From Candidatus Eisenbacteria bacterium (lineage in GTDB: Bacteria; Orphanbacterota; Orphanbacteria; Orphanbacterales; Orphanbacteraceae), in the NCBI GenBank assembly GCA_016930695.1, contig JAFGGD010000045.1, forward strand, positions 1-64,000: a stretch of DNA of 64,000 bases, read 5' to 3'. The stretch's first letter is position 1, and each line of letters begins with the position of its first letter. Position numbers and translations under genes: made by a program. This document shows positions 30,676 to 37,137 of this stretch, one piece after another. The notes under the pieces were generated by a model that searched no databases, was not told the DNA's origin, and was given only the letters and a program-made list of their open reading frames with translations.

Positions 30676-31068
30676 ATGGAACGCAGGGAGATCCGGACCG
30701 GCGAAGCGCCCGCCGCGGTGGGACCGTACAGCCAAGCGATACGGACCGGTCCCTTCGTGCACACCGCCGGACAAATCGCCCTCGATCCCGGCGGCGGCGG
30801 CCTCGCGGGCGGAACGGCGGGGGAACAGGCGGAGCGGGTTCTGCGGAACCTGCGGGCGGTTTTGGACGCGGCCGGATCCTCGATGGACCGGGTGGTGAAG
30901 ACCACCGTATATCTGACCGATCTGAACGCCTTCCATGAGGTGAACGAGATCTACGCCCGGTTTTTCCCCGACCCCGCGCCGGCGCGTTCCTGCGTCGAGG
31001 TGCGCGCGCTCCCGAAGGGGGCGCTCGTCATGATCGACGCGATCGGCCTGGCGGCGGATGAGGGCTAG
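30676..31068 (+). CDS. ridA: RidA family reactive-intermediate deaminase
   Basis: This 130-residue YjgF/YER057c/UK114-family protein hydrolyses reactive enamine/imine intermediates released by PLP enzymes. Hallmarks: PAAVGPYSQAIRTGPFVHTA, the VVKTTVYLTDLNAFHEVNEI segment and PARSCVEVRALPKGALVMID, where the Arg binds the substrate carboxylate. It follows glmS after 8 bases, so it is in the same operon. Confidence 0.93.
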   Translation: MERREIRTGEAPAAVGPYSQAIRTGPFVHTAGQIALDPGGGGLAGGTAGEQAERVLRNLRAVLDAAGSSMDRVVKTTVYLTDLNAFHEVNEIYARFFPDPAPARSCVEVRALPKGALVMIDAIGLAADEG

Positions 31069-31082
31069 CGGATCGACGGAGT

Positions 31083-31180
31083 GGGAATGGATGGGTTCTG
31101 GTGGGCCCCGAGGACTTCAAATCCTTAAGCCGGGCGCTAATCCCGTCCGGGGTGGGTTCGATTCCCACACATTCCCGCCA
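31083..31180 (+). tRNA. selC: tRNA-Sec (TCA), selenocysteine
   Basis: This 98-base tRNA has the selenocysteine features: anticodon TCA (31117-31119) in loop CTTCAAA, a long variable arm (CCGG...CCGG stem), T-arm GTGGGTTCGATTCCCAC and a long acceptor. The acceptor is GGGAATGG against ACATTCCC, with the eighth pair a G-A mismatch. Encoded discriminator G plus CCA (31178-31180). It implies that the host inserts selenocysteine at UGA. No selA, selB or selD is in the window. Confidence 0.95.
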
Positions 31181-31693
31181 AGACGGCGGCGCCGCGGCCC
31201 GGCGGTCGCGGCGCTCCTTTTGCTTCTTCTCTCGGTGACGGGCGCGCCCCGGGCCGAGGAGCAACCGGCGGAGGATCTGCCCGGAGCGGCGCCCTTTCTG
31301 AACGCGCTTCGCTCCCTCGCCTTCCCGGGCTGGGGGCAGCTCCATGCCGGCAACCGCTGGAAGGCGGTCGCCCTCTTCGCGGGGCAGACCTATCTCCTCG
31401 GCCGGGTCGCGATCACGGAGCGGCGCGCGCGTTGGTACGACGATCAGCGATCCCGCGCCGATTCCCCCTGGAGCGACGCCTATCTGGAGGAGCGTTACGA
31501 GGATCTGCGCCAAACCCGCCGGGATCTGGTATGGTGGAGCACCATCGCCGCGCTCTACTCCGTGTTGGACGCCTATGTGGACGCCCATCTCGTCGGTTTC
31601 GACGAGGCGGTGGATGAGGTGGACCGGGTGACATGGACCGTCGGCCCGGCGCCGGGAGGGGGAGCGCGGATCGCGCTCCGAGCGGTTTACTGA
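31091..31693 (+). CDS. Exported DUF5683-like protein; frame overlaps tRNA-Sec
   Basis: This protein has a signal-like stretch (RRRRRGPAVAALLLLLLSVT), then a DUF5683-like segment (FLNALRSLAFPGWGQLHAGN, GQTYLL) and a second hydrophobic part (DLVWWSTIAALYSVLDAYVD). The PGWGQ motif is typical of small envelope proteins of FCB bacteria. The start is a problem: the signal-peptide codons begin immediately after the tRNA CCA. The only in-frame starts before them are ATG at 31058 (inside ridA) and ATG at 31091 (inside tRNA-Sec, GGAG 9 bases upstream). Later TTG (31220) and GTG (31235) would lose the signal peptide. I list 31091. Function unknown. Confidence 0.6.
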   Translation: MGSGGPRGLQILKPGANPVRGGFDSHTFPPRRRRRGPAVAALLLLLLSVTGAPRAEEQPAEDLPGAAPFLNALRSLAFPGWGQLHAGNRWKAVALFAGQTYLLGRVAITERRARWYDDQRSRADSPWSDAYLEERYEDLRQTRRDLVWWSTIAALYSVLDAYVDAHLVGFDEAVDEVDRVTWTVGPAPGGGARIALRAVY

Positions 31694-32387: not shown

Positions 32388-34205
32388 ATGGACGAGCGCG
32401 TGCGGGACCACGTGCGGAACTTCTGCATCGTGGCCCACATCGATCACGGAAAATCGACGCTGGCGGACCGCATTCTGGAGCATACCGGCGCCGTCACGGG
32501 CCGGGAGATGCGGAACCAGGTGCTGGACGACATGGACCTGGAGAGGGAGCGGGGGATCACCATCAAGGCCCACGCCATACGGATCGATTACACGGACCGA
32601 TCCGGGCGGCTCCTCCATTTTCATTTGATCGACACGCCGGGGCATGTGGACTTCTCCTACGAGGTCTCGCGCTCCCTCGCCGCATGCGAGGGAGCGGTCC
32701 TCTTGGTGGACGCCGCGCAGGGGATCGAGGCGCAGACAATCGCCAATTTCTATCTCGCCCTCGAAGGCGGGCTCGTCGTTCTCCCGGCGATCAACAAAAT
32801 CGACCTTCCGGGAGCCCGGGTGGAGGAGGTGAGGCGCGCGCTTTCCGAACTGACCGGCGAGCCGGAGGAAGAGATCCTCGGGATCAGCGCCCGCACCGGC
32901 GAGGGGGTGGATCAGCTGATCGAAAAGATGGCGGAGAAGATTCCGCCCCCCGGCGGAAGCGAGGAGGAACCTCTTCAGGCGTTGATCTTCGACTCCGCCT
33001 TCGACCGGTATCGCGGCGTGAGCGTGTACGTGAGAATCGTGAACGGCGTGGTTCGGGCCGGCGATCGGATCGAGCTGATGTCCAACGGACAGGAGTACGT
33101 GGTGGACGAGGTGGGATCCTTCCGTCTCCGCCGCGTCCCCCGGGATTCGCTGAGCGCCGGCGAGGTGGGGTATCTTCTCGCGGGCATCAAGCAGGTGCAG
33201 GACGCGCGGGTGGGAGACACGATCACTTTGGCGGACCGGCCCGCGACACGGGCGCTCCCCGGTTTCCGCGAACCCAAGCCGATGGTTTTCAGCGGGCTCT
33301 ATCCGATCGATCCGGGGGATTACGACTCCCTGCGGGACGCGCTGGAGAAGCTGAAACTGAACGACGCTTCCTTCGTTTTCGAGCCGGAGTCGTCGGGCGC
33401 GCTCGGATTCGGTTTTCGCTGCGGGTTTCTCGGGTTGCTTCATATGGAAATCGTACAGGCCCGCCTGGAGCGTGAATACGATCTCGAGCTGATCGGCACG
33501 GTCCCCAACGTGGTCTTTCGCGCCTATAAGCTCGATGGAACGATGACCCGCGTGGAGAACCCGCTCCACCTGCCTCCGCGGAACGAGTTGATCCGTGTGG
33601 AGGAACCGGTGGTGGACGCCCAGTTGATTCTTCCTTCCGAGTACCTGGGGAACGTGCTGAAGCTGGTGACGGAGAAGAGGGGGGAGCACCGGGGGATGGA
33701 GTACCTGGAGTCGACCCGTGTTCTCCTGCGCGTGCGGCTCCCGCTCGCCGAGGTCGTGCTCGACTTCTACGACCGGCTGCAGTCGGTCTCTCGGGGATAC
33801 GCTTCCTACGATTACGAGCACGCCGGGTTCGTCGCCTCCGACATGGTGCGGCTCGACATCCTGGTGAACGAGGAGCCGGTGGACGCCCTCTCGGTGATCG
33901 TCCACCGCGACAAAGCGTACGCCTGGGGGCGACGCCTGGTCGGGAGGCTCCGCAAACTGATCCCCCGCCAGCTCTTTGCCGTGCCTCTTCAGGCGACGCT
34001 CGGCAACAAGGTGATCGCCCGGGAGACGGTCCCCGCGTTCCGCAAGGACGTAACCGCCCGTTGTTACGGCGGCGACATCACGCGGAAGCGAAAGCTCCTC
34101 CAGAAACAGAAGGAGGGGAAGAAGCGGATGAAGCGGGTCGGCTCCGTACAGATCCCCCAAGACGCCTTCCTCGCCGTTCTCCGCGTGGACGAGGAAGATC
34201 GCTGA
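32388..34205 (+). CDS. lepA: Elongation factor 4 (LepA)
   Basis: LepA/EF4 (605 residues) is a ribosome-associated GTPase. G-domain motifs: IVAHIDHGKSTLADRI, GITIKAHA, DTPGHVDFSYEVSRSLA and NKIDLP. The LepA-specific C-terminal domain has AVPLQATLGNKVIARET and YGGDITRKRKLLQKQKEGKK. Full length for the family. It lies in the conserved order lepA-hemW-hrcA. Confidence 0.97.
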   Translation: MDERVRDHVRNFCIVAHIDHGKSTLADRILEHTGAVTGREMRNQVLDDMDLERERGITIKAHAIRIDYTDRSGRLLHFHLIDTPGHVDFSYEVSRSLAACEGAVLLVDAAQGIEAQTIANFYLALEGGLVVLPAINKIDLPGARVEEVRRALSELTGEPEEEILGISARTGEGVDQLIEKMAEKIPPPGGSEEEPLQALIFDSAFDRYRGVSVYVRIVNGVVRAGDRIELMSNGQEYVVDEVGSFRLRRVPRDSLSAGEVGYLLAGIKQVQDARVGDTITLADRPATRALPGFREPKPMVFSGLYPIDPGDYDSLRDALEKLKLNDASFVFEPESSGALGFGFRCGFLGLLHMEIVQARLEREYDLELIGTVPNVVFRAYKLDGTMTRVENPLHLPPRNELIRVEEPVVDAQLILPSEYLGNVLKLVTEKRGEHRGMEYLESTRVLLRVRLPLAEVVLDFYDRLQSVSRGYASYDYEHAGFVASDMVRLDILVNEEPVDALSVIVHRDKAYAWGRRLVGRLRKLIPRQLFAVPLQATLGNKVIARETVPAFRKDVTARCYGGDITRKRKLLQKQKEGKKRMKRVGSVQIPQDAFLAVLRVDEEDR

Positions 34206-34238: not shown

Positions 34239-35309
34239 ATGAGCGCCGTCGAAAGGCCGCGCGAGGCGCGTGGTCTCTATCTCTCCTTTCCGCCGAGCCT
34301 CGCCCTTTCTCTCCGATCCTCCTCCGCCGACCTATACGCCGAAGCGGTTCTTCGTGAGGCGGAAAGGCGCGCCGCCGATGGGGGAGAGGGGGGTGCCTTC
34401 GTCGCGTGGATGGCCGGCGGCGAACCGTGGCGCCTGGGCGACCGCTCCCTCTCCTCCCTCTTTCGGGAACTCGCGCGGTTTTTTCCTCCCGCCCCGCGCG
34501 TGGAGCGCTCCATCGAATGGTTCGTCGGCGAAGCGGTGCCCGAACGGCTCGTCCCTCTTCACGAATCCGGCTTCGATCGGATCTGTTTGACCGGGAAGAC
34601 ACGCGCCGTCGGCTATCGGCCGGTAGGCGACGCCGCCGGTTTACGGGAGGCGGTCCGCGCCGCCCGCGCCGCCGGTTTTCGCCGCGTGGCGCTCGACATG
34701 GATCCAGCCGGAGGGGCGGCCGGTTCGATCGGACCCGCGGTTGCGGCGGCGGCCGGGCCGGACCATGTATCTCTGGTGGAGACGCCGGACGAATCCTTTC
34801 CCGAGGAGCGTTGGATCGCCGACTACGAGAAATCGCTCCGCATCCTCGAAGGGGCGGGACTCCTTCGGTATGAAGTCGCCCTCTTCGCCAAACCCGGATG
34901 CCGATCCGTCGGTCTCGGATTGATCGCCGCCGGCGGGTCGCGGGTCGGACTCGGCGCGGGGGCGGTCTCGGCGGGCGCTCGGGAGATTACGAGGAACGAA
35001 CCGGACCCGGACCGCTACGCCCGGATCGTGGGCGAGGGGGGAGATCCGGTCGTCCTCCGGGATCCGAGAAAAGAAGAGGACCGTTTACGGGAGAGGGTCT
35101 TCCACGGTGTCCGGAGGATCGGGGGCATTCACGTCGGCGCGCTCGAGAGGCGTTTCGGAGCAATGCGAACGCGCGATCTGGAGCGCCGCGCGCTGCCTCT
35201 TTTCCGTGCCGGTTTGCTTCGCCGGGCAGGATCCCGCCTTGTTCCCACAGATGCCGGCCTACTGACTGCGGAAGGGGTGGCCCGAGAATTATTAGGAGAA
35301 GGCGTTTAG
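34239..35309 (+). CDS. HemW-like protein lacking the radical-SAM cysteines
   Basis: This 356-residue protein sits between lepA and hrcA, where hemW is found in Bacillus and many others. HemW-type blocks are visible: GLYLSFPP at the N-terminus, AGGEPWRL (family GGGTPS), DHVSLVE (family HIS-Y-L), RYEVALFAKPG and VGLGAGAVS (family LGIGAGAHS), and a winged-helix-like C-terminus (LVPTDAGLLTAEG). HemW's CxxxCxxC cluster site reads S20-x3-S24-x2-S27, so no 4Fe-4S cluster can bind there and radical-SAM chemistry is lost. It is otherwise full length and uninterrupted. HemW itself is a heme chaperone; this may be a heme-binding or scaffold remnant, or a gene in decay. The alignment is by eye. Confidence 0.75.
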   Translation: MSAVERPREARGLYLSFPPSLALSLRSSSADLYAEAVLREAERRAADGGEGGAFVAWMAGGEPWRLGDRSLSSLFRELARFFPPAPRVERSIEWFVGEAVPERLVPLHESGFDRICLTGKTRAVGYRPVGDAAGLREAVRAARAAGFRRVALDMDPAGGAAGSIGPAVAAAAGPDHVSLVETPDESFPEERWIADYEKSLRILEGAGLLRYEVALFAKPGCRSVGLGLIAAGGSRVGLGAGAVSAGAREITRNEPDPDRYARIVGEGGDPVVLRDPRKEEDRLRERVFHGVRRIGGIHVGALERRFGAMRTRDLERRALPLFRAGLLRRAGSRLVPTDAGLLTAEGVARELLGEGV

Positions 35310-35405: not shown

Positions 35406-36452
35406 ATGACACGCGGTTCTACGCTGGATGATCGGGAGAGGGCGGTTCTGCGCTCCATCGTGGATCTCTATGTGGGAACCGCGCAACCGGTCGCTTCGGA
35501 GCGGGTCGTAGAGGAGACACGTCTCGGCCTCAGTTCCGCCACCATCCGGGGAGTGATGAGCCGGATGGAGGAAAGGGGACTCCTCCGTCAACCCCACACC
35601 TCCGCCGGCCGCGTACCGACCGATCGGGGGTACAGGGTCTATGTGGATGAGCTGATGGGGCCGGTCTCCATCGGCAGGCGGGAGCAGGAGGAACTCCTCT
35701 TCGGCGTGGAGCGCCTGGTGAACCGTCCCGATCAGCTGCCCGGGTCGATGAGCGCTCTTCTCGCGAACGTGTCCGGGCTGGCCGGTTTCGCGTCTCCTCC
35801 ACGGATCGACCGGGGGATCTATCTCAGCCTGCACGCGGATCTGGTGCGCGACGGCAGGGTGGCGATGGTGCTGGTGCTCGATTCCGGTTTCGCGCGATCG
35901 GCGCTCTGCCCCGCCGAGGAGGGGATCGACGAGAAGAGCCTCGCCTCCGGCGTGGAAGAGCTGAACCGCCGCTTCCGAGGGAGGGCGGTGGAGGAGATCC
36001 GGGACTTTCTCTTCGGCCCCGATTGGGAGGAGAACCTGCCGGCGCTCCGAGTGATGCGCCTCTTCCGCAAGGCGGCGGAGGAGCTTCTGGAAACGGGGCG
36101 GATGGCGAGGATCACCCTTTCGGGCGTGGAGTCGCTTCTCCTGGAGCCGGAGTTTCGCAGCAGCGACGAGCTGGTCCGTCTCAGCGAGAGAATCGAAGGA
36201 GGGAGCGGCCTTCCGGACCCCGAAAAGGACGCCCTCGCGGATGGGGGCGTCGCGCTTCGAATCGGCGCCGAGAATGACGAAGAGGAGCTGACCCCCTTCA
36301 GCATTCTCGCCGCCGAGTATCGCTTCGGCCGTTTCACCGGGATCATGGGGATGATCGGCCCCACCCGGATGCGGTACGGCCGGGGCGCGGCGATCGTCGA
36401 TTTCGCGCGGAGGATCGTGGAACAGAGAATCGTCCCATTCGTGGAAGGATAA
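35406..36452 (+). CDS. hrcA: Heat-inducible transcription repressor HrcA
   Basis: HrcA (348 residues) represses chaperone operons and is kept active by GroEL in other bacteria. The N-terminal winged helix (LDDRERAVLRSIVDLYVGTA, then GLSSATIRGVMSRMEERGLL and HTSAGRVPTDRGYRVYVD) and the C-terminal GAF-like domain (GIMGMIGPTRMRYGRGAAIV) are both present. First gene of the hrcA-grpE-dnaK-dnaJ unit, with its own promoter. The classical CIRCE operator is not seen upstream. Confidence 0.95.
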   Translation: MTRGSTLDDRERAVLRSIVDLYVGTAQPVASERVVEETRLGLSSATIRGVMSRMEERGLLRQPHTSAGRVPTDRGYRVYVDELMGPVSIGRREQEELLFGVERLVNRPDQLPGSMSALLANVSGLAGFASPPRIDRGIYLSLHADLVRDGRVAMVLVLDSGFARSALCPAEEGIDEKSLASGVEELNRRFRGRAVEEIRDFLFGPDWEENLPALRVMRLFRKAAEELLETGRMARITLSGVESLLLEPEFRSSDELVRLSERIEGGSGLPDPEKDALADGGVALRIGAENDEEELTPFSILAAEYRFGRFTGIMGMIGPTRMRYGRGAAIVDFARRIVEQRIVPFVEG

Positions 36453-36483: not shown

Positions 36484-37137
36484 ATGGCGAGAAAAAAGGA
36501 CGAGAGCGAGGAAAAACGGGAAGACGGGCTTCGGGAATCCGGCGAGGAGACGGAGGCGGGCGCGCCGGTGTTCGGCGAGCAGCCGCGCGGCTCCGCCGAG
36601 CCGACGGAGGAAGACACTCTCCGCCTCCGGGTGGAGGAACTGAACGACCGCTGGCTCCGTGCCGTGGCGGACCTGGACAACTTCCGCAAGCGGACCGCAC
36701 GAGAGCGCGAGAAGGAGAGGGGTCTCATCCGGGCGGCGGTGATTCTTCCCCTTCTCGACGTGCTCGACGACTTGGAGAGGGCTCTCGCGAAAGGGAAGGG
36801 CGCCGGGCCGGAGGATTTCCGGAGCGGCATCGAGATGATCCACAGGAAGTTTCTGGGGGCGCTCGGCGAACAGGGGGTTCTCCCCATCGCTTCCCTGGAC
36901 CGGCCGTTCGACCCGGAGCTGCACGAAGCGTTTCAGGCCGTTCCGGACCCGAGCGGGGAGGAGGGCCGCGTGGTCGCCGAAATCCGCAGAGGGTACCGGA
37001 TCGGCGATCACGTGATCAGACCTTCCCAGGTGGCGGTGTCCGCGCCGCCCGCCGGGGATGGATCGGAAGAGGCGCCGAAGAAGACGTTCGACGAACCTAA
37101 GCATAAAGAGAACGAGGAGGAGCCGGACAATGGCTAG
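36484..37137 (+). CDS. grpE: Co-chaperone GrpE
   Basis: GrpE (217 residues) is the nucleotide-exchange factor of DnaK. A charged N-terminal tail and long coiled coil ([20 protein letters not shown]) precede the beta-wing domain ([20 protein letters not shown], then [17 protein letters not shown]). The C-terminus overlaps the dnaK start by 8 bases. Confidence 0.95.

Follow-up and report, generated by a model that had tools for sequence, protein, structure and literature searches.

A HemW orthologue lacking its iron-sulfur cysteines at the lepA–hrcA locus of the Orphanbacterota, a probable pseudo-radical-SAM protein

The hemWL locus and its conservation across the phylum

The window analysed here, a stretch of 64,000 nucleotides, belongs to a draft genome of the Orphanbacterota, 3.78 Mb in size and 96% complete, and displays the gene order glmM, glmS, ridA, signal peptidase, lepA, hemWL, hrcA, grpE, dnaK, dnaJ, rsmE and mutS2. 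We refer to hemWL as the Cys-less HemW orthologue located at positions 34239..35309 of the forward strand, an ORF running from ATG to stop, preceded by GGGAGG and encoding 356 amino acids. It is flanked on the same strand by lepA (EF4; 32388..34205; TIGR01393, 923 bits) upstream and by hrcA (35406..36452; TIGR00331, 217 bits) downstream, followed by grpE (36484..37137, forward strand) and then dnaK and dnaJ, in a conserved synteny. The full-length ORF at the lepA-hemW-hrcA position, pointed out in a preliminary description of this DNA, was thus recovered. Further upstream, ARAGORN predicted a selenocysteine tRNA (anticodon tca; 31083-31180) between ridA and the signal peptidase gene, overlapping the 5' part of a mechanically called ORF (31058-31693).

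Profile searches related the protein to HemW at a distance. The HemN C-terminal domain (HemN_C, PF06969; residues 279-342, 35073..35264, forward strand) passed the Pfam gathering score with 25.8 bits against a cut-off of 24 bits, and no match to Radical_SAM (PF04055) was obtained in Pfam. The NCBIfam HemW model (TIGR00539) gave a weak 23.2 bits, far under its curated cut-off of 205.4, while the hhalign comparison of a profile of the Cys-less family (4 sequences) with one canonical HemW reached a probability of 99.4 over 326 columns. Annotating such a protein from its position or from its HemN_C domain would lead to a false radical SAM call.

Orthologues were sought in the genomes of seven species, all from one family, the gene lying in a conserved glmM-glmS-ridA-lepB-lepA-[hemW]-(hrcA)-grpE-dnaK cluster. 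Five of them (the window genome, G001, G003, G004 and G006) carry hemWL at the lepA/grpE position; as the records of three relatives are MAGs from separate projects, an assembly artefact is very unlikely. In G002, both hemWL and hrcA are gone and 178 bp separate the lepA and grpE matches, whereas G001 and G004 lack hrcA and retain hemWL. The seventh genome (G005, 82% complete), in which lepA was not assembled, was left out of the presence/absence scoring. Altogether, three of the phylum's six genomes lack hrcA (lepA-to-grpE loci L053, L054 and L056), with the lepA-grpE-dnaK-dnaJ order intact. No second HemW was detected at E 1e-3 in the 96% complete window genome, where hemWL was the sole match of a HemW model that also picks up HemN in other genomes. 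The gene had been described as a paralogue; with no second copy found and the orthologous position occupied in five genomes, that label does not hold. By its position in the lepA-hemW-hrcA-grpE cluster of five genomes and its full-length profile homology, hemWL is a vertically inherited HemW orthologue.

This distribution also bears on the proposal that hemWL is a factor tied to the function of LepA or HrcA, to which its constant place next to lepA in the five genomes would lend some weight. This adjacency is ancestral and common to ordinary HemW. The persistence of hemWL in the two genomes that lost hrcA contradicts a link to HrcA, and G002, which has LepA without hemWL, weakens one to LepA, making this explanation highly improbable.

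Loss of the cluster loop and of other HemW signatures

The three HemW cysteines are missing from all five orthologues, in which the cluster loop is largely deleted, and none displays the CxxxCxxC motif that holds the [4Fe-4S] cluster of functional HemW. The loop remnant of the window protein lies at residues 20-27 (34296..34319, forward strand). This region reads PPSLALSLRSSSADL in the window protein, PWDRAVVPDEEERF in G006, PWDRAVAPDEEERF in G003, PPPGDSPAEA in G001 and PESTEDSLW in G004. An exact replacement of the triad by S20, S24 and S27 had been suggested from the window alone. These serines do fall at the Cys spacing if the alignment is left ungapped from P18, but the aligners place a deletion in the loop, which shortens it. 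They are not special either: residues 16-29 hold 6 Ser over 14 positions, so that serines at three given sites would arise by chance with p ~0.055, and the other orthologues read D/-/- or gaps at these positions, never Ser. We consequently rejected the Ser-for-Cys swap as a functional motif, the loop being Ser-rich and the orthologues lacking Ser at these sites.

The losses extend well beyond the cluster. Taking as reference 42 canonical HemW sequences, in which 51 columns are conserved at 95% or more, 19 of these near-invariant columns persist in four or more of the five hemWL, and 25 have gone in four or more. Lost columns include the cysteines of the cluster with adjacent residues, the His of LYxHxP, the Thr of GGGTP, the NP following E93, G118, Q120 and the RxH pair. 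The site of the invariant LYxHxP His, a heme-ligand candidate, is S16 in the window protein (34284..34286, forward strand) and reads S/S/S/A/R across the five orthologues. The SAM-binding motif GGGTP is degenerate (AGGEP; 34413..34427, forward strand), reading GGGDP in genus g4 and being lost in G001 and G004. The Y, L, E and T of SxYxLTxExGT have disappeared with a deletion of 14-15 residues, the site of the missing segment (LTxExGTPF..LP) lying at residues 182-188 (34782..34802, forward strand), followed by the clade-specific E189..W192. Finally, the H, N and W of HNxxYW are lost; the site reads GLGLIA (34911..34928, forward strand) and the motif is gone in all five orthologues. HNxxYW has been assigned to heme binding in HemW (PMC11834973; PMC10320005) and is conserved in bacterial HemW (PMC10320005), while the LYxHxP His is a heme ligand in the related CgdH2 (PMC10320005). 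The combination of a Cys triad with a GGE/GGGTP SAM motif, as expected from an active radical SAM enzyme, is thus absent from hemWL, as is the HNxxYW motif of a functional HemW (PMC10320005).

The kept columns (P18, E40, E89, E93, R114, H176, Y211, E212, G239, R292 and G296, among others) are spread over the scaffold. The RYEVALFAKPG (34866..34898) and GLGAGAVS (34947..34970) blocks, both on the forward strand, are retained and still align to HemW, as the preliminary description had noted. In addition, the hemWL clade has invariant residues of its own, namely L179, E181, W192 and R210.

A predicted HemN-like fold

An AlphaFold model computed from an eight-row alignment of hemWL that included canonical HemW rows, from which it borrows, reached a pLDDT of 80 and a pTM of 0.78. 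Foldseek placed HemN (1OLT) first with this model (TM 0.73, E 5e-18), the next match having an E of 1.5e-4. A control model restricted to the four Cys-less rows was of low confidence (pLDDT 62, pTM 0.58), and HemN was still first (E 7e-9). Together with the HemN_C match (25.8 against 24 bits), these predictions suggest that a HemN-like fold carrying its C-terminal domain has been maintained.

Constraint or slow decay

Selection was estimated on the congeneric pair G003-G006 (genus g4); between genera, dS is near saturation and makes omega weak. The dN/dS of hemWL is 0.27 (bootstrap 95% 0.19-0.38), with values of 0.04 for lepA, 0.13 for hrcA and 0.28 for grpE in the same pair, and falls to 0.14-0.16 at residues 0-60 and 180-240. 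Between genera, codon position 3 is less conserved than positions 1 and 2. Moreover, no stop or frameshift was found in hemWL across five lineages: about 2.6-3.8% of single changes create a stop, so that under neutrality each substitution per site would bring 26-40 stops, and neutral drift would have produced dozens. The dN/dS of 0.27 and the absence of stops and frameshifts indicate that hemWL is under constraint, a looser one than for most neighbouring genes, with purifying selection acting in one genus at least.

By contrast, some features count against a retained role: hemWL evolves fast and is dispensable in G002, where it is cleanly missing. The main rival to a pseudoenzyme is therefore a slow relic, a gene that lost the HemW function and is decaying, its ORF surviving through residual constraint such as the avoidance of toxic or aggregating products or translational coupling within the operon. 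This scenario would account for the clean loss in G002, with 178 bp between the lepA and grpE matches, for an omega among the highest of the neighbourhood, for the rapid divergence (26-38% identity between genera, versus 68-77% for LepA) and for the low scores of the G004 orthologue, whose HemN_C match (16.9 bits) is under the cut-off. It fits poorly with five deep lineages free of stops and frameshifts, with an omega that is significantly lower than 1 and drops to 0.14-0.16 in some blocks, and with the existence of clade-specific invariant residues, and we regard it as unlikely, although operon translational coupling could partly explain the retention of hemWL. The earlier suggestion of a repurposed, non-radical protein rather than simple decay is accordingly upheld by the family-wide Cys loss, the dN/dS below 1, the absence of stops and frameshifts, and the HemN fold.

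Heme metabolism around hemWL

Ferrochelatase, ALAD, HemN (as separate genes) and COX1 are present in G001, G002, G004 and G006. In the window genome, none of these four was found by whole-genome search, and cytochrome bd was detected. Contig C277 of G006 carries a partial ferrochelatase, HemN and ALAD together, and a single missing contig could thus explain their absence from the window genome and G003; for the former, either heme auxotrophy or one missing contig could be involved. Since heme enzymes occur beside the Cys-less hemWL, the loss of the cysteines does not follow from a loss of heme use, and a heme-free lifestyle was discarded as its full cause, in view of ALAD, ferrochelatase, HemN and COX1 in G001, G004 and G006 and of the cytochrome bd of the window genome. 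TANGO2/HtpA was likewise excluded as a replacement chaperone, no member being found in the phylum.

Heme enzymes (COX1 or cytochrome bd) in a phylum with neither another HemW nor HtpA/TANGO2 would be compatible with a putative cluster-free heme chaperone, hemWL still binding and delivering heme without an Fe-S cluster, all the more so as the HemW of E. coli binds heme without needing its [4Fe-4S] cluster (PMC10320005). However, this cluster is required for heme transfer to NarI (PMC10320005), HNxxYW is gone in all five orthologues, and the LYxHxP His is replaced by S/S/S/A/R. The loss of both histidine motifs weakens the heme carrier put forward in the preliminary description, and we consider such a chaperone improbable here.

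A probable pseudo-radical-SAM protein

We favour as probable the reading of hemWL as a HemW-derived pseudoenzyme, inactive, retained for a putative binding or scaffold role and cleanly lost once. In the ancestor of the phylum, a HemW orthologue would have lost its [4Fe-4S] cluster, its SAM site and its proposed heme-binding motifs while keeping a folded barrel and the HemN_C domain. The present protein would then be a pseudo-radical-SAM protein, most likely acting by binding or as a scaffold, folding and protein-protein interactions being its presumed assets. Its partner would be neither HrcA nor strictly LepA; the most plausible inherited one may be a client of HemW, for instance a heme enzyme bound to the membrane or the factor that assembles it. 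As far as its sequence can tell, hemWL would no longer be a HemW by function.

A second Cys-less clade in the Rhodothermales

Among about 30 HemW homologues read from Rhodothermales, ten form a clade devoid of the Cys triad (L060:5581-6699 of Longimonas halophila, L080, L085-L090, L093 and L105); L087 was assigned from its motif alone and is outside the alignment. In this clade, C-x3-C-x2-C has become R-x3-R-x2-D (C-x3-A-x2-D in one member), GGGTP mostly reads GGGRP and no LTxExGT loop remains. The His of LYxHxP and that of HN/HQ are both kept. The Cys-less protein is the sole HemW homologue found in Longimonas halophila, the only other confident match being HemN. Separately, a HemW-like ORF of a Rhodothermaceae MAG (L062:5905-7131) turns at its C-terminus into an unrelated, aldehyde-dehydrogenase-like sequence and is probably an assembly chimera.

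In the tree, the Cys-less Rhodothermales nest within the HemW of their order (support 99.8), apart from the hemWL clade, making independent origins likely; the AU test, itself weakened by long branches, did not reject a single clade uniting both (p 0.135). We tentatively propose, as a possibility rather than our expectation, that HemW gave rise on more than one occasion to a non-radical protein without a cluster, serving as the only HemW of whole lineages: in this phylum, with the histidines also lost and a new function, and in halophilic Rhodothermales, with the histidines kept, both sharing the loss of the substrate-side loop and a new Glu. In the cultured halophile Longimonas halophila, the protein may be a heme chaperone that works without a cluster.

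The purpose of the HemW Fe-S cluster is still debated, and lineages whose only copy is a cluster-less derivative represent natural tests of its role. The Rhodothermales clade, with its heme histidines in place, could allow radical SAM chemistry and the binding of heme to be told apart in an organism available in culture, while the phylum of the window reveals what remains of HemW once the cluster and the heme histidines are both lost.

Comparison with known systems

A literature search returned no papers on Cys-less HemW or PsgB. The kind is already known through PsgB (NCBIfam TIGR04419), and, in the literature searched, neither the occurrence of hemWL across a lineage at the native hemW locus nor the Rhodothermales clade appears to have been described. 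PsgB provides a precedent, as a HemN relative classed as a non-iron pseudo-SAM protein, but hemWL does not belong to it: the window protein has no match at E 10 and the G001 orthologue only a weak partial one (17.7 bits, for a cut-off of 300). HemN (1OLT, coproporphyrinogen dehydrogenase) is the best structural match to the predicted hemWL model (TM 0.73) and, unlike hemWL, is an active radical SAM enzyme with CX3CX2CXC. HemW itself (TIGR00539) shares with hemWL the lepA/hrcA/grpE position, the length, the HemN-like fold with HemN_C and the RYEI..FA.PG and GLGxGA blocks, whereas hemWL lacks CxxxCxxC, the LYxHxP His and HNxxYW and has lost the SAM site and the LTxExGT loop. A parallel described here, the Longimonas halophila clade, resembles hemWL as a HemW homologue, the sole one found in the Longimonas genome, deprived of the Cys and of the LTxExGT loop, with the Thr of GGGTP replaced and a conserved E in the column of E181, and differs from it by its retained LYxHxP His and HN/HQ, its fixed R-x3-R-x2-D and its match to Pfam Radical_SAM.
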